Source: Moraxella nasibovis
GTDB taxonomy: Bacteria; Pseudomonadota; Gammaproteobacteria; Pseudomonadales; Moraxellaceae
NCBI RefSeq assembly: GCF_029581575.1
Contig: NZ_CP089975.1
Location: forward strand, 1,736,001 to 1,800,000
Reading direction: 5' to 3'
Length of the DNA: 64,000 bases
Under the pieces are notes generated by a model that was not told where the DNA came from, made no database searches, and saw only the letters and a program-made list of their open reading frames with translations. Within the stretch, counting starts at the first letter, position 1; each line of letters starts with the position of its first letter. The position numbers were made by a program, and so were the translations under genes. This document shows, one piece after another, positions 21,331 through 30,108 of this stretch.

Positions 21331-21336
21331 TTAAAT

Positions 21337-21382
21337 AAAACAAGGGCATATTTTTAATTGGGAAAATGCGCCTTTGTTTTTA
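21337..21382 (+). terminator. Probable terminator after prpC
   Basis: AAAACAAGGGC pairs with GCCTTTGTTTT (one mismatch) around a 22-base loop and ends in T5. It would separate prpBC from the genes downstream. Confidence 0.5.
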
Positions 21383-21412
21383 AAATGCACAGTTTTATTT
21401 ATAGCCATAAGC

Positions 21413-21557
21413 CGTAAGGTGCGTATTACGCATTGTTTAGAAGTTATATACCAAAAGAACTTTAAAGTTACCACAAAATTTATTTTTGGGCGTAAGGTGC
21501 GTATTACGCACCGTTTAGAGAACTGTCTTTTGATTGGTGCGTATTACGCACCTTACG
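21413..21557. repeat. REPIN-like cluster of three 17-bp palindromes
   Basis: Three copies of GGTGCGTATTACGCACC (the first ends one base early as GCGTATTACGCA) begin near 21418, 21496 and 21536. The first two are preceded by CGTAA and followed by GTTTAGA in direct orientation. The third is inverted and followed by TTACG. Copies two and three therefore form 22-bp inverted arms around a 23-base spacer, the layout of a REPIN. A related pair lies between glcB and aceA. Confidence 0.75.
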
Positions 21558-21582
21558 ATTGTAGGTTTTCTGGAGTTTAATT

Positions 21583-22083
21583 ATGAAAAATATCGCAATC
21601 TCTTTATTGTGCTTATCTTTATTATTAACCGCTTGTCATAAACCTAACAATATTGATATGCAAAAAAATGATAATTTGGCGACAAAAGATGGTATTCAAA
21701 GCAATACAGAAAACAGCATTGATGGCTCAATAAATAAAAAAGTAGATATATTTTATTTATTGAATGATGATATCGTTTTACAGGATAATCTTTTTTTAGA
21801 ACATAGATTTCCAGCTATTTTAACAGTCAATAAAAAATGTTTATCTATTGAGACGATAAATGAAGGAAAAATTTATACATTGGTAATACCAAATACCAAT
21901 GAAGTTTTGTTTGATGAAAATAAAAATGTTATTGGGTTGTTTAATAAATCCACAAAAAGAAAAATTTTAATTAGTGAAAAAATTGGACTAAGTGACTCAA
22001 AAGCAGTAACACCAACTTCATCAAAGAAAGAAGTGCCAAAAGATTGTTCAGAAACCTTATTATTAACACAGGAAATTGTTTGA
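21583..22083 (+). CDS. Putative lipoprotein A of a tandem paralogous triplet
   Basis: This 166-residue protein has a lipoprotein signal, with LLLTAC giving the lipid-bearing Cys at residue 18. A Lys/Asn-rich linker and a small domain follow. The domain shares EIFYL or DIFYL, a CLSIE segment, IYTLVIP, EVLFDENKNVIGL and a C-terminal KEVPKDCSETLLL with the next two genes. Two conserved Cys could form a disulfide. I do not recognise the family. GGAG precedes the start. Base composition is far more A/T-rich than in prpC or acnD, which suggests acquired DNA. It is the most divergent of the three. Confidence 0.7.
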   Translation: MKNIAISLLCLSLLLTACHKPNNIDMQKNDNLATKDGIQSNTENSIDGSINKKVDIFYLLNDDIVLQDNLFLEHRFPAILTVNKKCLSIETINEGKIYTLVIPNTNEVLFDENKNVIGLFNKSTKRKILISEKIGLSDSKAVTPTSSKKEVPKDCSETLLLTQEIV

Positions 22084-22100
22084 AATTAAGCGTATTCTAT

Positions 22101-22149
22101 TTTTCACAGCCAAAGGAACTTAGCAATAAAAAACCACCGTAAACCCTAC
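22101..22149 (+). pseudogene. Relic copy of the acnD leader and start region
   Basis: These 49 bases repeat 23804-23853, the leader, ribosome binding site and first codons of acnD, with two substitutions and one missing base. The acnD start ATG is ATA here and no frame continues. It directly follows lipoprotein A, as acnD itself follows the unknown gene, so the block between the copies is flanked by direct repeats. Confidence 0.75.
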
Positions 22150-22178
22150 TTGTATTTGTTTGATAAATAAGGTGTTTT

Positions 22179-22688
22179 ATGAAAAATATCTCAATCTCTT
22201 TATTATGTCTATCAATGTTGTTAAGCGCTTGCCAACAAACAAATGGTATTGATAAGACAAAACCAAATGAAGCAGAAAATCAACAAAAAACCAATATTGT
22301 TGAAAACACAAAAATCAAAAAGGCAGAACCAACAATAGAAAATAAAGAAATATTTTATCTAACAAGCGATGATATTTCTGACATGCCAACAGAACTTCGA
22401 GAACATCTAACCAGTATGGATTTAATTATCCATAATAATTGCCTGTCATTAAAATCAAGAAATGATGAAGATAAAATATACACTTTTGTTTTATCAGATG
22501 AAAAAGAAATTTTATTTGATGAAAATAAAAAAATTATTGGCTTAACCAACCCTAAGTCAAAGAAAAAATTCTTAATTGGTGAGCAGGTTGGATTAAGTGG
22601 CACAAATTCAGTTAATGCCACTTCATCAAAAAAACCAGTACCAAAAGAATGCTCGCAAACTTTATTATTCACAGGGGAAGTTTTTTAA
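22179..22688 (+). CDS. Putative lipoprotein B of the triplet
   Basis: This 169-residue paralogue of its neighbours has lipobox LLSAC with Cys18 and then QQTNGID, shared with lipoprotein C. The folded part runs from EIFYLTSDDI through CLSLKSRN, KIYTFVLSDEKEILFDENKK and ends KPVPKECSQTLLFTGEVF. AAGG precedes the start. It is close to lipoprotein C along its whole length and more distant from A, so B and C are the more recent duplication. Codon use is strongly A/T-biased. The function is unknown. Confidence 0.7.
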   Translation: MKNISISLLCLSMLLSACQQTNGIDKTKPNEAENQQKTNIVENTKIKKAEPTIENKEIFYLTSDDISDMPTELREHLTSMDLIIHNNCLSLKSRNDEDKIYTFVLSDEKEILFDENKKIIGLTNPKSKKKFLIGEQVGLSGTNSVNATSSKKPVPKECSQTLLFTGEVF

Positions 22689-22702
22689 TTTCCATACCTA
22701 TT

Positions 22703-22736
22703 AAAACTGAATAATATAATAATATTATTCAGTTTT
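22703..22736 (+). promoter_or_regulatory. Perfect 15-bp stem-loop directly before lipoprotein C
   Basis: AAAACTGAATAATAT and ATATTATTCAGTTTT flank the 4-base loop AATA. The right arm ends in TTTT, immediately followed by the GGAG ribosome binding site of lipoprotein C. It may terminate the lipoprotein B transcript or control translation of C. Confidence 0.6.
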
Positions 22737-22747
22737 GGAGTAAATAT

Positions 22748-23248
22748 ATGAAAATTTATACAATCTCTTTATTTTTATTGTGTTTATCAATGCTATTAGG
22801 TGCTTGTCAGCAAACTAATGGTATTGACAACATAAAAACAAATCAAAATGCCAAAACGACTGAAAATGCAGAAGTAAAAAAGATAGAACTACCAACAGAA
22901 AATAAGGAAATATTTTATTTAACCGAAAAAGATATTATTGAAATGCCAAAATATTTGGCACAAATGAGAAATGGTATGGATTTAATCATATACCATAATT
23001 GTTTATCATTAAAATCAAGAAATGGTGAAAATAAAATATATACTTTTGTTTTAAATGATGACAGTAAAGTTTTATTTGATGAAAATCAAAAAATCATTGG
23101 CATTATAAACACAACATCAAATAAAAAAATATTGCTTGGCGATATAGTTGGCTTAAATGGCTTAACTTCTGAACCAGCCACTTTATCAAAAAAACCAGTA
23201 CCCAAAGAATGCTCGCAAACCTTGTTATTTACAGGGGAATTTATATAG
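22748..23248 (+). CDS. Putative lipoprotein C of the triplet
   Basis: This 166-residue paralogue has lipobox LLGAC with Cys20 and then QQTNGID. The C-terminal half keeps EIFYLTEKDI, HNCLSLKSRNGENKIYTFVL, VLFDENQKIIGI and KPVPKECSQTLLFTGEF, nearly identical in places to lipoprotein B. GGAG is well placed before the start. It is preceded by a perfect stem-loop. No family is recognised. A surface or immunity-type role is possible because small paralogous lipoproteins often diversify, but nothing in the sequence proves it. Confidence 0.7.
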   Translation: MKIYTISLFLLCLSMLLGACQQTNGIDNIKTNQNAKTTENAEVKKIELPTENKEIFYLTEKDIIEMPKYLAQMRNGMDLIIYHNCLSLKSRNGENKIYTFVLNDDSKVLFDENQKIIGIINTTSNKKILLGDIVGLNGLTSEPATLSKKPVPKECSQTLLFTGEFI

Positions 23249-23296
23249 AATTGGTTTTCTAATATTAAATTTAACAAACTTAAAATTGGAGTTCTG

Positions 23297-23797
23297 ATGT
23301 TAAATATAGAAATTTGTGATAACAAAGACCACAAAGCCGTTTATTATCGTAACTCTGATGATGTGGCAATTCGGATTACCATTTTGGATTTAAACCATAC
23401 CATTATTCAGGATGTAATTTCTGAATACGATAAAACAGGTAAACATATTTGCGATGTGTTATTTGGTACAGACCCAACCGAAATTATTGCTTATCGTGAA
23501 TATCATTTTTGTGACGATAAAAATGCGAGCGGTTGGACGGATTATAAAAAAGTGAATGGCGAATTTATCAAATTGCACTCAAAAAATGGTGTTTGGATTA
23601 TTCAAGATGAACTGTTTCGTTGCGATTGGTTTTATCCAAATGGCGAATTGGCATTTTATGATGTGTTTAAATTTGATGATGATATTGGCGAAATGTGCAA
23701 AGAACATTCTTATTTTGCCAACTCAGAAGTAATTTTGGATTATGCTGATAAACCAAAATTAGAGCATTTTGATGATTATTATTTAGATTTTTTATAA
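23297..23797 (+). CDS. Hypothetical protein within the prp islet
   Basis: This 166-residue soluble, acidic protein has no signal peptide and no motif that I recognise. Aromatic and acidic residues are frequent (REYHFCDDKNASGWTDY, DWFYPNGELAFYDVFKF), and the C-terminus is DDYYLDFL. The pattern of short strands with conserved-looking WxDY and YPNGEL stretches recalls small immunity-type or MORN-like repeat proteins, but this is only a resemblance. GGAG lies before the start. It is A/T-rich and stands between the lipoproteins and acnD, inside the block flanked by the acnD-leader repeats. Confidence 0.55.
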   Translation: MLNIEICDNKDHKAVYYRNSDDVAIRITILDLNHTIIQDVISEYDKTGKHICDVLFGTDPTEIIAYREYHFCDDKNASGWTDYKKVNGEFIKLHSKNGVWIIQDELFRCDWFYPNGELAFYDVFKFDDDIGEMCKEHSYFANSEVILDYADKPKLEHFDDYYLDFL

Positions 23798-23828
23798 AAA
23801 ATTTTTTCACAGCCAAAGGAACTTAGCA

Positions 23829-26414
23829 ATGAAAAACTACCGTAAACCCCTACCAAACACCGAGCTACATTATTATGATGTAGAACAAGCGATTAACGAT
23901 GTCAAGGCGGACAGCTACAAAACACTCCCCTACACCGCCAAAGTGCTTGCCGAACAGCTCGTTCGCCACTCACACGATGACCCAAAATTAGGCGAGTATT
24001 TAACACAGCTTATTGACAATAAACAAGAATTGGACTTTGCGTGGTATCCTGCACGGGTGGTATGCCACGACATTTTGGGACAGACCGCCCTTGTGGATTT
24101 GGCGGGACTGCGTGATGCGATTAGCGATGCAGGGGGCGACCCTTCCAAAGTCAATCCTGTGGTACAAACTCAGCTGATTGTTGACCACTCGCTTGCGGTG
24201 GAACACGGGGGCGATGACCCTGACGCTTTTGCCAAAAACCGTGCCATTGAAGACCGCCGAAACGATGACCGTTTTGACTTTATCAATTGGACAAAAACTG
24301 CCTTTGAAAATGTTGATGTTATCCCTGCGGGTAACGGCATTATGCACCAAATCAACCTTGAAAAAATGTCGCCTGTGGTGCAGGTTAAAGACGGCATTGC
24401 CTTTCCTGACACCTGCGTGGGGACGGACAGCCATACGCCACACACGGACGCTTTGGGCGTGATTTCGGTGGGCGTGGGCGGACTTGAAGCCGAATGCGTA
24501 ATGCTGGGCTTGCCGTCAATGATGCGTACGCCTGACATTGTGGGCGTGCATTTGACAGGTAAACGGCAAGCTGGCATTAGTGCGACTGACATTGTATTGG
24601 CTTTGACCGAATTTTTGCGTGCCGAGCGAGTGGTGGGGGCGTATTTGGAATTTTTTGGCGAAGGGGCAAACTCGCTGTCGGTGGGCGACAGAGCGACCAT
24701 TGCCAATATGACCCCTGAATATGGGGCAACCGCAGGGCTGTTTTATATTGACCAAAACACTTTGGATTATCTCACCTTGACAGGGCGAGAAAGCGAACAA
24801 GTGAAATTGGTGGAGCAATACGCCAAAACCGTTGGGCTGTGGGCGGATAAAATGACAAATGCCCAGTATCCACGAGTTTTGGAGTTTGATTTATCAAAGG
24901 TAACTCGTAACATCGCAGGACCTAGCAATCCGCACGCCAGAGTTGCCACGAGCGACCTTAAAGCCAAAGGCATTGCAGGGGTGGTAGAAAATCGTGATGA
25001 CGGCTTAATGCCTGACGGAGCGGTGATTATCGCCGCGATAACGAGCTGTACCAACACTTCCAACCCAAGAAACACCGTTGCCGCAGGATTATTAGCCAAA
25101 AAAGCCAATGAATTGGGTTTAACTCGTAAACCTTGGGTCAAATCGTCCTTTGCCCCTGGTTCTAAGGTTGCTCGCCTTTATTTAGAAGAAGCCAAATTAT
25201 TACCCGAACTTGAAAAATTGGGCTTTGGCATTGTCGCTTATGCCTGCACCACTTGTAATGGAATGAGCGGTGCGTTACGACCAGAAATTGAACAAGAAAT
25301 CATAGAGCGAGATTTATACGCCACAGCCGTGTTGTCGGGCAATCGCAATTTTGACGGACGCATTCACCCACAAGCCAAACAAGCGTTTTTGGCAAGTCCG
25401 CCCCTTGTTGTGGCGTATGCGATTGCAGGAACGATTCGTTTTGACATTGAAAATGACTCACTTGGCAATGACCAAAATGGCAATCCGATTTATCTAAAAG
25501 ACATTTATCCAAGCGATGATGAGATTGATGACATCGTGGCAAAATGCGTCAAACCCGAGCAATTTCGTGAAATTTATATCCCAATGTTTGATTTAGATAA
25601 ATCGCAAAAGGCAAACAGTCCGCTTTATGATTGGCGTGAACAGTCCACTTATATTCGCCGTCCGCCCTATTGGGAAGGGGCTTTGGCGAAAGAATGCCAA
25701 TTACAAAACTTACGACCGCTTGCCATTTTGCCTGATAACATCACGACCGATCATTTATCGCCGTCCAATGCCATTGTCAAAAATTCGGCGGCGGGTGAAT
25801 ATCTTGCCAAAATGGGCGTGCCAGAAGAAGATTTTAACAGCTATGCCACGCACAGGGGCGACCATTTGACCGCACAACGGGCGACTTTGGCAAATCCCAA
25901 ACTCTTTAATGAAATGGTCAAAAACGCTGACGGCACAACCCGTCAAGGCTCGCTGGCTCGCATTGAACCAGACGGGCAAGTGGTGCGAATGTGGGAAGCG
26001 ATTGAGACCTATATGGAGCGGGGTCAGCCTTTAATCATCATCGCAGGGGCGGATTATGGGCAAGGGTCAAGCCGAGACTGGGCGGCAAAAGGCGTACGGC
26101 TTGCAGGCGTGGAAGTGATTGTCGCAGAAGGTTTTGAACGCATTCATCGCACCAACCTTGTGGGAATGGGCGTGTTGCCATTGCAATTTATAAACGGTCA
26201 AAATCGCCATACGCTTAAATTGGACGGTACGGAAATTTATGCGGTACAAGGGGAAATCTCGGCTCGCTGTACTTTGGATTTAATCATTGAACGCAACAAT
26301 GGCGAGACCCAAACCGTGCCTGTCTTATGTCGTTTGGATAGTGATAGTGATGTGAGAACTTATAAGGCGGGGGGCGTGTTAAGGGAGTTTGCGAGTAAAT
26401 TTTTAGATAGCTAA
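23829..26414 (+). CDS. acnD: Fe/S-dependent 2-methylcitrate dehydratase AcnD
   Basis: AcnD dehydrates 2-methylcitrate to 2-methyl-trans-aconitate, which PrpF then isomerises; the pair replaces PrpD. It is an 861-residue aconitase-family protein. The [4Fe-4S] ligands are Cys407 in ITSCTNTSNP and Cys473 and Cys476 in ACTTCNGMSG. DNITTDHLSPSNAI marks the swivel domain, and GADYGQGSSRDWAAKG is the substrate-binding loop. AAGGAA precedes the start. In the usual arrangement it would follow prpC and be followed by prpF. Here both junctions are interrupted by A/T-rich accessory genes, while acnD itself has normal composition. Confidence 0.95.
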   Translation: MKNYRKPLPNTELHYYDVEQAINDVKADSYKTLPYTAKVLAEQLVRHSHDDPKLGEYLTQLIDNKQELDFAWYPARVVCHDILGQTALVDLAGLRDAISDAGGDPSKVNPVVQTQLIVDHSLAVEHGGDDPDAFAKNRAIEDRRNDDRFDFINWTKTAFENVDVIPAGNGIMHQINLEKMSPVVQVKDGIAFPDTCVGTDSHTPHTDALGVISVGVGGLEAECVMLGLPSMMRTPDIVGVHLTGKRQAGISATDIVLALTEFLRAERVVGAYLEFFGEGANSLSVGDRATIANMTPEYGATAGLFYIDQNTLDYLTLTGRESEQVKLVEQYAKTVGLWADKMTNAQYPRVLEFDLSKVTRNIAGPSNPHARVATSDLKAKGIAGVVENRDDGLMPDGAVIIAAITSCTNTSNPRNTVAAGLLAKKANELGLTRKPWVKSSFAPGSKVARLYLEEAKLLPELEKLGFGIVAYACTTCNGMSGALRPEIEQEIIERDLYATAVLSGNRNFDGRIHPQAKQAFLASPPLVVAYAIAGTIRFDIENDSLGNDQNGNPIYLKDIYPSDDEIDDIVAKCVKPEQFREIYIPMFDLDKSQKANSPLYDWREQSTYIRRPPYWEGALAKECQLQNLRPLAILPDNITTDHLSPSNAIVKNSAAGEYLAKMGVPEEDFNSYATHRGDHLTAQRATLANPKLFNEMVKNADGTTRQGSLARIEPDGQVVRMWEAIETYMERGQPLIIIAGADYGQGSSRDWAAKGVRLAGVEVIVAEGFERIHRTNLVGMGVLPLQFINGQNRHTLKLDGTEIYAVQGEISARCTLDLIIERNNGETQTVPVLCRLDSDSDVRTYKAGGVLREFASKFLDS

Positions 26415-26494
26415 AAATTTGTCAATCGTGTAAAGGCAAGGCAATTTTGCGGTAGAATCGTCTTGTTGGTTTTAATTTTTAAGAGGATTTAAAT

Positions 26495-28936
26495 ATGTCT
26501 GAACAAAACTTTGAAAACGAAATTATTGAAGGCTTGATTGGTGGCAGAGCAATTTTGTTTACTGGAGCTGGTTTTTCTGTTGGAGCAATAAATCTAGAAG
26601 GTAGGTCTCCTGTAATGGCAAGAGGGCTTTCCGCTAAAATTGCAGAATTAATTTCTGTTGAGGAAGATAAAGAAGATTTGGGTTATGTGTCAGATAAATT
26701 AATATCTCATCACAAAGAAAAAATACCTGCTTTAATAGAGCTTTTGAAAAAAGAATACAGCATCAAAGAAAGTAGCGAAGAACAAAACCTATTTGCATCC
26801 ATTGATTGGCGTAGGGTTTATACCACAAATTATGACCAAGTTTTTGAAATGGCACTAAAAAGCAATGGAAAGCCATATACTTCTATTGATATGGATATGA
26901 AGACCGCTAATTATATCCAACAACAAAATACTTGTATTCACATCAATGGATTTATAGATAACCTAAAAGAAAGTGATTTGGATGGAAAATTTAAATTATC
27001 AAATTCATCTTATGTTTCTCCCGATGGTTTTTTAGAATCTGATTGGTATGGATTATTCAAAAGAGATTTGGATAATAGTTCAATTATTTTATTTGTTGGC
27101 TACTCCCTATACGATTTAGATATTGAAAAAATTTTATTTTCAAAAAATGAAGTATTTCAAAACAAAACATATTTTATAGTTGGAGAAAATTGCAATGAGA
27201 GACAAGTATACAAACTATCAAAATACGGAAAAGTAATTAAAAAAAATTATGATTTTATATCACAAATTATTAAAAATAACAGAAATATAATATCCAATAA
27301 TGATAAATATATTGTATCATCTTTTGATTTATGCAGTTTTTCTGACTATGAAGATAAGTATTTTTCTGATGATGATATTAAGGATTTCTTGGTACATGGC
27401 AAGCTAAATAAGATGGCAATAAAGAATTCTGTTCTCGATGAAAATTTTGATAAATATGCTATTTACAGAGAAGATATTGATAATGTAGTTGATGCATTAA
27501 GCAACAATGATTATGATATTGCTATTGGTACCAGTGAATTTTGCAATGGAAAAAGTGTTTTTTGCGAGCAATTATCTATCATTGCTACAAGTCAGAATTA
27601 TCATGTTTATATCGCCAATGAACATTTCGAATATTTTTATGACGATTTATCGTTCATAAATAAACAATCTGGAAAAGTTCTTGTAATTATTGATGATTAT
27701 ATAAGGTATAAAAATGAAATAAAAGATTTCATAAAAATAAAATCCAAAAATATTAAATTATTTTTAACAGCCAGAACATCAGAAAATATAAAATCATTCA
27801 ATGACATTGGCATAGATAGATATTATAGCTTGGATTTAGATTACCTAAAAATTGGGGAAATCAATCAACTTGTATCTATATTTAATGGCTTGGGTGTGTG
27901 GGGTGCTAATGCCAATTTAACAGACTTAAAAAAGCTTCAAAGAATCAAAGATAACTACGAAAGTCAAATATCTTTAGCTTTGTCTGATATTTTAAACTCC
28001 GAAGTTGTTAAAAATAAAACCAAAAATATACTAAGCGAAGTATTTAATGTTTTTAGTAGAAAAACAATATTTCATATATGTTTTTTTAAAGTTGTAGGAA
28101 TAAATTTGGACAAAGATTTATTGGATGAGATTATTCAGAATAAGGAAATTTACGACAGTTCAAAAATTAACAACAAATACTTTTTATCATTATTTTCAAA
28201 TGAAAAGAATGTTATTTCTGGAAAATCAAGCATCTTTTGTGCTTGGATTATTAAAAATTTCTTTAATCCCAGGGAAATAATGAACGAAATGCACACTTTA
28301 GCCAAATATTTCGATACACGAAGAAGAGATTTTTATAATAGTTATCAAAGAGATAAGATTTTTAAATCTGTTTTGAGATTTTCTTTTATCGAAAGAATAT
28401 TACCCGAAAGTGGAAAAAGAGATAATTTAAAATACTACTATGATAAATTAAAGAATGATATTGATTGGCTAAAATATGACCCTCATTTTTGGCTTCAATA
28501 TGCAATGGCTTTCATGACATTTCCAGATAAATATGACGAAGCTCAAAATTTCCTAGACCAAGCATACTCTTTGGCTGATAAAAAAATAGGGTATTCTATT
28601 GATAATATACACAATCAACAAGCTAGATTGTTTATAAAACAAGCTAGACAAAATTCTGATGGAAAAATCTGTTTTGATTTTTTTAAGAAGGCACATAATT
28701 TATTGAGACAAACACCAAATGATGTCTACAAGTACAGACAAATGAAAGAGTATCATGAGTTATACAAGGATAGATTTCATATCTTGAGCAAAGAAAATAA
28801 AAAAGATTTTTTAAATCTAATTAAGCAATCTATTAAATCACTTGAGATGCAAATAAACAGTCAATTTGACCCTCATTTGGATTTGTTAATTAATACATTA
28901 CACAAAATTACTTCACAAAATACAAGTAAGGAGTAA
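26495..28936 (+). CDS. SIR2-domain protein with STAND-like NTPase and TPR-like C-terminus, probable anti-phage defence
   Basis: This 813-residue protein has a complete N-terminal SIR2-like NADase module: FTGAGFS (residues 22-28), TTNYD (110-114), His149 in CIHING and FVGYSLYD (200-207). A P-loop-like region follows, with GTSEFCNGKS (345-354; Ser at the first Gly of the Walker A) and a Walker B-like VLVIIDDY (395-402), then LFLTARTSE. The last 250 residues are helical and TPR-like (WLQYAMAFMTFPDKYDEAQNFLDQA, parts WLQYAMAF and YDEAQNFLDQA). This order matches SIR2-STAND defence proteins of the Avs5/DSR kind, which deplete NAD+ on infection. AGAGGA precedes the start. The gene is extremely A/T-rich: the 60 bases from 27241 hold seven G or C. 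It lies between acnD and prpF, against all operon logic. Domains are seen; defence is inference. Confidence 0.8.
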   Translation: MSEQNFENEIIEGLIGGRAILFTGAGFSVGAINLEGRSPVMARGLSAKIAELISVEEDKEDLGYVSDKLISHHKEKIPALIELLKKEYSIKESSEEQNLFASIDWRRVYTTNYDQVFEMALKSNGKPYTSIDMDMKTANYIQQQNTCIHINGFIDNLKESDLDGKFKLSNSSYVSPDGFLESDWYGLFKRDLDNSSIILFVGYSLYDLDIEKILFSKNEVFQNKTYFIVGENCNERQVYKLSKYGKVIKKNYDFISQIIKNNRNIISNNDKYIVSSFDLCSFSDYEDKYFSDDDIKDFLVHGKLNKMAIKNSVLDENFDKYAIYREDIDNVVDALSNNDYDIAIGTSEFCNGKSVFCEQLSIIATSQNYHVYIANEHFEYFYDDLSFINKQSGKVLVIIDDYIRYKNEIKDFIKIKSKNIKLFLTARTSENIKSFNDIGIDRYYSLDLDYLKIGEINQLVSIFNGLGVWGANANLTDLKKLQRIKDNYESQISLALSDILNSEVVKNKTKNILSEVFNVFSRKTIFHICFFKVVGINLDKDLLDEIIQNKEIYDSSKINNKYFLSLFSNEKNVISGKSSIFCAWIIKNFFNPREIMNEMHTLAKYFDTRRRDFYNSYQRDKIFKSVLRFSFIERILPESGKRDNLKYYYDKLKNDIDWLKYDPHFWLQYAMAFMTFPDKYDEAQNFLDQAYSLADKKIGYSIDNIHNQQARLFIKQARQNSDGKICFDFFKKAHNLLRQTPNDVYKYRQMKEYHELYKDRFHILSKENKKDFLNLIKQSIKSLEMQINSQFDPHLDLLINTLHKITSQNTSKE

Positions 28937-28941
28937 TCAAA

Positions 28942-30108
28942 ATGCAAACCCCAATCCCAGCCACTTATATGCGTGGTGGCACATCAAAAGGCACATTTTT
29001 TAATTTGGCGGATTTGCCCGAGCCTTGCCAAGTAGCAGGGCAAGCACGAGACTTGATTTTACTCCGTGTCGTGGGCAGTCCAGACCCCTACGGCAAGCAG
29101 ATTGACGGACTGGGCAACGGCTCATCAAGCACTTCCAAAGTCGTGATTATCTCACCTTGCACGGACGGCACGCACGATGTCAATTATCTGTTTGGACAAG
29201 TGGCGATTGATAAGGCGATGATTGATTGGTCGGGCAACTGTGGCAATTTGACAGGGGCGGTCGGCTCATTCGCTATTTTTAATGGCTTGATTGATAAAGC
29301 AAAAATCCCCGAAAATGGCATTTGCACCGTCAAAATTTATCAAGAAAATATCTTTAAGACCATCATCGCCTATGTACCCATCAAGGACGGAGCGGTGGTA
29401 GAAACGGGCGATTTTGAGCTGGACGGCGTAACCTTCCCCGCGAGCGAAATCAAAATTGAATTTATTGACCCTGTGGACGACACGGGCGAGATGTTCCCCA
29501 CAGGCAATTTAAAGGATACTTTGACCGTGCCTGATGTGGGCGAATTTGAAGTTACGATGATTAACGCAGGCATTCCCACGATATTTTTGTACGCTCACGA
29601 GCTTGGGCTTTCAGGCACAGAAAGGCAAGCCGACATTAACACGAATGGCGAAATTCTCGCCAAATTAGAAAAAATCCGTGCTTACGGTGCGGTCAAAATG
29701 GGCTTAATTGATGATGCCAAAGAAGCAGTCAGCCGTCAGCACACACCCAAAATCGCTTGGGTTGCACCGCCTACCGACTATGTCGCATCCAGTGGCAAAA
29801 CCGTCAAAGATGATGACATTGACCTTTTGGTGCGGGCGATGAGTATGGGACAACTGCACCACGCAATGATGGGGACGGCAAGCGTGGCGATTGGCACGGC
29901 AGGGACGATTGTTGGGACGATTGTCAATGATGTGGCAGGTGGTAAGGCGTTGAACGAAGTTACTTTTGGACACCCGTCAGGCATGCTTACTGTTGGTGGG
30001 CAATCTGAATGCGTGAATGGCAAATGGGTTGCTCGTAAAGTATCTATGAGCCGTTCGGCAAGAAGGCTTATGACCGGACAAGTATGGGTGCCTGCCGATA
30101 GTTTTTAA
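28942..30108 (+). CDS. prpF: 2-methylaconitate cis-trans isomerase PrpF
   Basis: PrpF converts 2-methyl-trans-aconitate, the product of AcnD, to 2-methyl-cis-aconitate. It is a 388-residue protein with the diaminopimelate-epimerase-like fold. TYMRGGTSKGTFF near the N-terminus, DGLGNGSSSTSKVVI and CGNLTGAVG are the conserved parts, and FGHPSGMLTVGG lies near the C-terminus. Its AAGGAG ribosome binding site overlaps the last codons and stop of the SIR2 gene, so it is presumably read from the same transcript. Composition returns to that of the other prp genes from the first codon. Confidence 0.95.
   Translation: MQTPIPATYMRGGTSKGTFFNLADLPEPCQVAGQARDLILLRVVGSPDPYGKQIDGLGNGSSSTSKVVIISPCTDGTHDVNYLFGQVAIDKAMIDWSGNCGNLTGAVGSFAIFNGLIDKAKIPENGICTVKIYQENIFKTIIAYVPIKDGAVVETGDFELDGVTFPASEIKIEFIDPVDDTGEMFPTGNLKDTLTVPDVGEFEVTMINAGIPTIFLYAHELGLSGTERQADINTNGEILAKLEKIRAYGAVKMGLIDDAKEAVSRQHTPKIAWVAPPTDYVASSGKTVKDDDIDLLVRAMSMGQLHHAMMGTASVAIGTAGTIVGTIVNDVAGGKALNEVTFGHPSGMLTVGGQSECVNGKWVARKVSMSRSARRLMTGQVWVPADSF

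Follow-up and report, generated by a model that had tools for sequence, protein, structure and literature searches.

Among the anti-phage proteins that combine a SIR2 domain with a STAND core, those nearest to the case treated here are the Avs5 proteins (AVAST type 5), with EfAvs5, of known structure (9JAP), and PaAvs5 as described members. PMC12931631 gives GAGxS and TTNxD as Avs5 motifs, states that about half of the Avs5 homologs carry NG instead of the HG of sirtuins, and reports that protection by PaAvs5 is abolished by alanine or glutamine at the asparagine of this NG motif. As for genomic location, the defence hotspots of E. coli are presented in PMC10121019 as integration sites of mobile elements that are mostly empty, with a median occupancy of 8%. 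Here we describe an Avs5-like gene lying between acnD and prpF, within a propionate catabolic operon, in a 64,000-nucleotide (nt) stretch of the Moraxella nasibovis genome (hereafter, the window); both gene names are those of an earlier note on this DNA. The acnD and prpF homologs of N. meningitidis are numbered consecutively, NMB0433 and NMB0434, in PMC4441257. We consider it likely that the protein is an Avs5 of the EfAvs5 kind, and that it occupies a genus-wide slot refilled by replacement, mostly with anti-phage-like cargo. Literature searches covering Moraxella prpF and acnD, Moraxella anti-phage hotspots and the methylcitrate locus in connection with defence islands listed no report of such a slot.

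A full-length relative of EfAvs5

The open reading frame (ORF) is intact, running from an ATG start to a TAA stop without internal stops and encoding 813 amino acids (aa), as the earlier note had read it, and it is present as a single copy in the 2.23-Mb genome. Its product matches the EfAvs5 sequence of 9JAP over the full length (expectation value (E) 6e-123), and the fold comparison with the same chain aligns 795 residues at ~30% identity. The SIR2_2 profile matches at 5e-14, above the Pfam cut-off, and the structural model proposed in that note as a check of the SIR2 part aligns with solved SIR2 domains. The predicted structure (mean predicted local distance difference test score 81.3, predicted template modelling score 0.60) also bears out the helical C-terminus that had been read from the letters. 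In the middle region lie the motifs N351-G-K353-S (351-354) and D400-D401 (IIDD), and N351, G352, K353, D400 and R427 are invariant across 8 aligned sequences. By sequence and predicted fold, the protein is thus a new member of the known Avs5 family, of the EfAvs5 kind.

The SIR2 motif set, previously described as complete, requires a finer reading: GAGFS and TTNYD are indeed present, and for the set to count as complete the third motif has to be admitted in its NG form. In turn, the catalytic role assigned to His149 has to be moved. Since residue 146 of the H146N KomC chain aligns with N151, the same position holds a histidine in one homologous locus (L045) and two others (L075, L076) contain HLHG, the alignments indicate that N151 is the occupant of the catalytic-histidine position. 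His149 stands two residues ahead of it, invariant though it is in 8/8 and 11/11 aligned sequences.

By analogy with published Avs5 work, the trigger, the filament, the loss of NAD+ and the resulting protection would most probably follow one another in this way: the C-terminal repeat region would recognise a phage protein, the STAND core would open and the protein would assemble into a filament, in which the SIR2 domains would turn active and hydrolyse NAD+, so that infection would be aborted.

A constantly filled slot between acnD and prpF

The comparison set, with one genome per species, comprised 22 genomes of the same genus including the window's own (G000), and in 14 of them a single contig carries both acnD and prpF. 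Counted as linked are G003, where the acnD end alone is on the contig, and G018, where both genes are broken; outside the count stand G014 (two contigs, with another gene after acnD), G011 (prpF at the edge of its contig), G021 (an acnD piece) and five genomes with no close acnD or prpF match (G007, G009, G017, G019 and G020). All 13 linked relatives, among the 21 other genomes, are filled, with 870-5622 nt between the two matches, and with the window the occupied slots amount to 14/14. The contents have a guanine plus cytosine (G+C) content of 25-39%, and the inserts are short, mostly of one or two genes. They are co-directional with the operon in 12/14 genomes (the exceptions being G006 and G012), and the last cargo ORF ends at most 60 nt from prpF in 11/14.

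The cargo itself differs from one genome to another (Table 1). Matches to defence families, namely Old, type II restriction-modification, HEC-01, ApeA-HEPN, Juk, AriB and PD-T4-4, occur in 10 of the 13 relatives, or 11/14 including the window. The profile scan covered 20 of 22 listed cargo ORFs, a second Doc-like copy and an insertion sequence (IS)-like ORF being omitted; the G012 genes and the small G015 ORFs lay outside the scan. A PADLOC match at 1e-3 was obtained for 15 of the 20, two of these being weak (Fic 2.6e-4, Csn2 1e-4). Pfam profiles detected no integrase in any of these 20 ORFs; a 217-aa ORF of G006, outside that scan, reads like an IS transposase. Plasmid homologs exist for the 254-aa protein of G008 (4 records) and for the 275-aa protein of G018 (210 records), and by position these slot genes are candidates for new defence genes. 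Altogether, the earlier suggestion that the methylcitrate locus is an insertion spot for defence genes gains from the relatives, all 13 of which carry other cargo, and the comparison supports regarding the slot, with its conserved flanks and variable, mostly defence-like contents, as a new variant of defence hotspot.

Table 1. Coordinates of the gene, its domains and flanks in the window, and cargo of the corresponding slot in related genomes (G numbers).
Feature	Position	Strand	Basis or remark
Avs5-like SIR2-STAND gene, 813 aa	26495..28936	+	ORF; full-length sequence and fold match
SIR2 NADase-like domain, ~residues 1-265	26495..27289	+	Pfam SIR2_2 at 107-233; solved SIR2 domains align over ~1-265
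GAGFS motif, residues 24-28	26564..26578	+	sequence, alignment
TTNYD motif, residues 110-114	26822..26836	+	N112 presumed catalytic by analogy with PaAvs5 N110
H149-I-N151-G152, NG variant of sirtuin HG	26939..26950	+	KomC alignment; NG variant described for PaAvs5
STAND-like nucleotide-binding region, ~residues 319-500	27449..27994	+	weak nSTAND_NTPase5 match, 319-430
C-terminal helical-repeat region, ~residues 592-809, putative sensor	28268..28921	+	helices of the model (592-809)
acnD, left flank	23829..26414	+	
prpF, right flank	28942..30108	+	
acnD-prpF slot	26415..28941	.	acnD and prpF located in 22 genomes
Leader, acnD stop to gene	26415..26494	+	first ~57 nt common to G016, G001, G013
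G016 cargo			Old-like ATPase (1e-46)
G005 cargo			PD-T4-4_A-like ATPase (7e-26), 218-aa partner
G002 cargo			AAA/Old-like ATPase (AriA 3e-27, Old 3e-21), Fic
G013 cargo			Old (1.5e-229), Doc-like gene
G004 cargo			type II restriction enzyme (4e-123), methyltransferase (7e-95)
G001 cargo			two genes, one for an ApeA N-terminal domain and one for HEPN (PADLOC Cas13-ApeA 2e-12)
G010 cargo			HEC-01A (1.6e-193), HEC-01B (4e-80)
G015 cargo			JukA-like (1e-15), other genes
G006 cargo			AriB-like (2e-26), weak AriA-like ATPase (1e-10), IS-like ORF
G003 cargo			PD-T4-4_A (6e-43), 200-aa partner
G008 cargo	L028:1365-2126		254-aa unknown protein
G018 cargo	L037:6149-7436		two genes, 167 and 275 aa; one weak Csn2 match (1e-4), not counted
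G012 cargo			ordinary-looking genes

Probable origin and turnover of the cargo

A foreign origin of the gene, together with its A/T-richness relative to both neighbours, had been pointed out in the earlier note, and both views found support. In 500-bp windows wholly within the gene the G+C content is 24-33%, against ~45-52% over most of the two flanking genes, and the G+C at third codon positions is 0.22 in the gene, 0.48 in acnD and 0.51 in prpF. No match was found in 347 other genomes of the family (E 1e-20), and in a set of 57 genomes including its own, the sole other match (G039) was weak and partial, with 29% identity over residues 103-243. Homologs exist on plasmids, where 22 of 72,556 records match, 13 of them with a query coverage of 80% or more; the hosts are Escherichia (11), Zymomonas (3), Proteus (2), Providencia (2) and, with one each, Duffyella, Klebsiella, Skermanella and Lacticaseibacillus. 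An Avs5-like gene carried by a Proteus plasmid of 7 kb (L004:2668-5202) stands next to a RelE/ParE-type toxin gene. None of 50,697 phage records holds a homolog, and viral contigs gave none with the single-protein query and 11 loci with the alignment query.

A protein with 86% identity is encoded in a record titled as a Lonepinella koalarum metagenome-assembled genome (L003). The DNA of this record matches the window at 26396-28943; apart from that stretch, the only match is a 33-nt repeat. The gene is preceded there by a decayed acnD remnant (score 56.6, against a maximum of 33.8 in 500 shuffles), 46 nt of it being 87% identical to G004 acnD; it is followed by an element that G001 also has close to its 3' junction (33 nt, 97%), and one gene of the record is 98% identical to a G005 gene. 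Three places of L003 carry a 12-base word that we take to be the uptake signal of Neisseriaceae, and its binning is therefore doubtful, unless the record reflects wide transfer.

In the other genera of the family acnD was found in 14/14 searched, and 11 could be scored for the gap, G027 (acnD and prpF far apart) and G025 and G028 (different contigs) being left out. The gap measures ~20-200 nt in 9 of the 11; those of G031 and G030 reach 3.3 and 6.9 kb, with contents that read as cellular genes. In G027, acnD is followed by a 130-aa GmrSD_N piece (5e-21, a restriction family; L062:4676-5068) and then by what looks by eye like an IS ORF.

Between genomes, common cargo DNA is limited to the leader, a Fic/Doc region, a transporter and short 3' elements. 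The leader is common over 49-57 nt among G000, G016, G001 and G013, and over 75 nt between G013 and G016; the Fic/Doc region is common to G002 and G013 (92% DNA identity), the transporter to G012 and G015, and G001 shares short 3' elements with G016, G013 and G002. The closest flanks enclose different cargo, the acnD of G016 having 88.6% DNA identity to that of the window. Furthermore, in a test of flank identity covering 12 of the 14 linked genomes (without G003 and G018), four-fold sites of the 8 close genomes were more alike in the last 100 acnD codons than in the rest in 23/28 pairs, and in prpF codons 16-100 in 28/28, the pairs not being independent. Synonymous identity thus tends to be higher the nearer the flank lies to the slot, a pattern expected after homologous replacement. 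The last 100 acnD codons have a lower amino-acid identity than the rest (0.886 vs 0.910), and of the two flanks acnD gives the cleaner sign of replacement.

The cargo persists where the operon is broken (G021, L003 and G018). The G021 locus (L042:4838-7753) comprises a 3' piece of acnD, an ATPase region and ~40 nt of prpF, without the rest of the operon; its ATPase region has 98.6% identity with the G002 one, though it is split into two ORFs.

No repeat frames the insert, and within 26300-29100 only short A/T-rich pairs were found. The palindromic repeat GGTGCGTAATACGCACC, with 6 places in the window's genome, was considered as a cassette end; G001 has it close to the 3' junction and L003 has it after the gene, whereas the window's slot lacks it, and it was rejected as a general border for that reason. 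It occurs in 3/81 loci, two of these being the same G001 place. Two copies are seen at 21496 and 21536 of the window, between prpC and lipoprotein-like ORFs. With respect to expression, the stretch from acnD to the gene shows neither a terminator-like site nor, on the + strand, a promoter-like one; over 26300-29000 as a whole, 15 promoter-like sites were counted, against 16.7 in shuffles. Compared with shuffled sequence, the leader hairpin folds better in G016 (z -2.2) and not in the window (z -0.9).

We propose that at any given time the slot would contain a single short accessory system, and that it would be refilled by replacement, the likely mechanism being DNA uptake, presumed here, followed by homologous recombination between the conserved flanks.

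Alternative explanations

Several results weigh against an Avs5 of the EfAvs5 kind in a replacement-refilled slot. Regarding the protein, the nSTAND_NTPase5 match (3.5e-6) is below the Pfam cut-off, the first glycine of Walker A is replaced, K353-S354 being kept, the whole-chain root-mean-square deviation to 9JAP is 22.5, and it receives no Avs5 call from either PADLOC 2.0.0 or NCBIfam, nor do five plasmid homologs from PADLOC; such genes may consequently go unlabelled. The SIR2 half could fit a defence protein of the DSR or ThsA (Thoeris) type, and the earlier note had named Avs5 and DSR types together. Of these, Avs5 stands by the full-length sequence and fold match to EfAvs5; DSR membership was not adopted, as DSR2 folds align over 250-370 residues, the best rows mainly in the SIR2 part, against 795 for EfAvs5. 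Nor was that of ThsA, the profile match of which stops at position 231 of 478, within the SIR2 half, with no SLOG domain among the Pfam matches of the protein. Either assignment is therefore very improbable. Even less credence is given to a role in propionate metabolism or operon regulation, which would suit a co-directional gene that begins 80 nt past the acnD stop, ends 5 nt ahead of prpF and follows no terminator-like site; against it, the gene has no match at E 1e-20 in the 347 other family genomes despite the presence of acnD in every other genus searched, and the cargo differs between species and outlives the operon.

A more serious contender, unlikely all the same, accepts an Avs5-like NADase and regards the slot as a merely permissive gap open to any passing DNA, where defence genes would be common for no other reason than their abundance in mobile DNA. 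In its favour, other junctions vary too: the prpC-acnD gap measures 334-2663 nt in 11 genomes and the prpB-prpC gap 99-1786 nt in 7, so that variability is not in itself unique to the slot. From the wider flanks, only the latter pair and the LysR-type gene with prpB (152-287 nt in 4 genomes) were present in at least 4 genomes as controls. Moreover, the cargo of G012 is ordinary-looking and shares a transporter with G015. Other points weigh against the refilled slot itself: G018 (weak Csn2) and G008 (none) lack a counted defence match, and for G016, G005, G002 and G003 the match depends on ATPase profiles, AAA_15/AAA_21, that hit many families. The flank signal is weak in pairs with 4 distant genomes (acnD 17/32, prpF 26/32) and among these (2/6 for each), and amino-acid identity in prpF codons 16-100 is higher too (0.904 vs 0.852), so that constraint may contribute part of the prpF signal. 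What speaks against a mere gap is the shortness of the inserts and the contrast between 10/13 linked relatives with defence-family matches and 1 of the 10 ORFs scanned (among 21 of at least 90 aa) in the neighbouring prpC-acnD gap, a methyltransferase (mad2 4e-18); Pfam matches in that gap in relatives include Adhesin_E and a HINT pretoxin domain. The operon is hence variable at several junctions, and defence matches, as far as scanned, concentrate in the acnD-prpF slot. In the window, the prpC-acnD gap (21331-23828) is a second A/T-rich variable region, which holds a 166-aa ORF and three lipoprotein-like ORFs related to one another.

Beyond the refilled slot favoured here, a dedicated defence socket of single occupancy, in which DNA acquired from other cells, with acnD and prpF ends, swaps the defence gene by homologous recombination without any mobile-element enzyme, so that each species has one interchangeable system there, is a tentative extension to which we give slightly less than an even chance. 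If it were true, the G008 and G018 unknowns would be undiscovered defence systems, and being read from the propionate operon might couple defence to the niche of the host.

Comparison with described systems

The protein resembles EfAvs5 in full-length homology, in domain order and in the NG at the HG position of the aligned chain, and departs from it in sequence, only ~30% being identical, as well as in the location of its gene in a chromosomal slot of a catabolic operon. With PaAvs5, as described in PMC12931631, it has in common the order of a SIR2, a STAND-like and a repeat region, GAGxS, TTNxD, NG, the P-loop lysine and the conserved arginine; unlike that protein, for which nSTAND3 is described, it shows a weak nSTAND5 match, and its Walker B has two consecutive acidic residues. 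ThsA, DSR2 and KomC have other sensor parts.

The novelty would reside in the locus: inside a catabolic operon, a defence slot is constantly filled, and its scanned ORFs include no integrase. It offers a simple model for the exchange of small defence genes between species, and a place to seek new systems by position, as with the G018 and G008 genes that have plasmid relatives. As at the E. coli defence hotspots described in PMC10121019, the defence cargo varies while the core genes on either side are conserved; unlike those sites, in which mobile elements integrate and most remain vacant, the slot described here lies inside an operon, receives short cargo and is filled in every linked genome.
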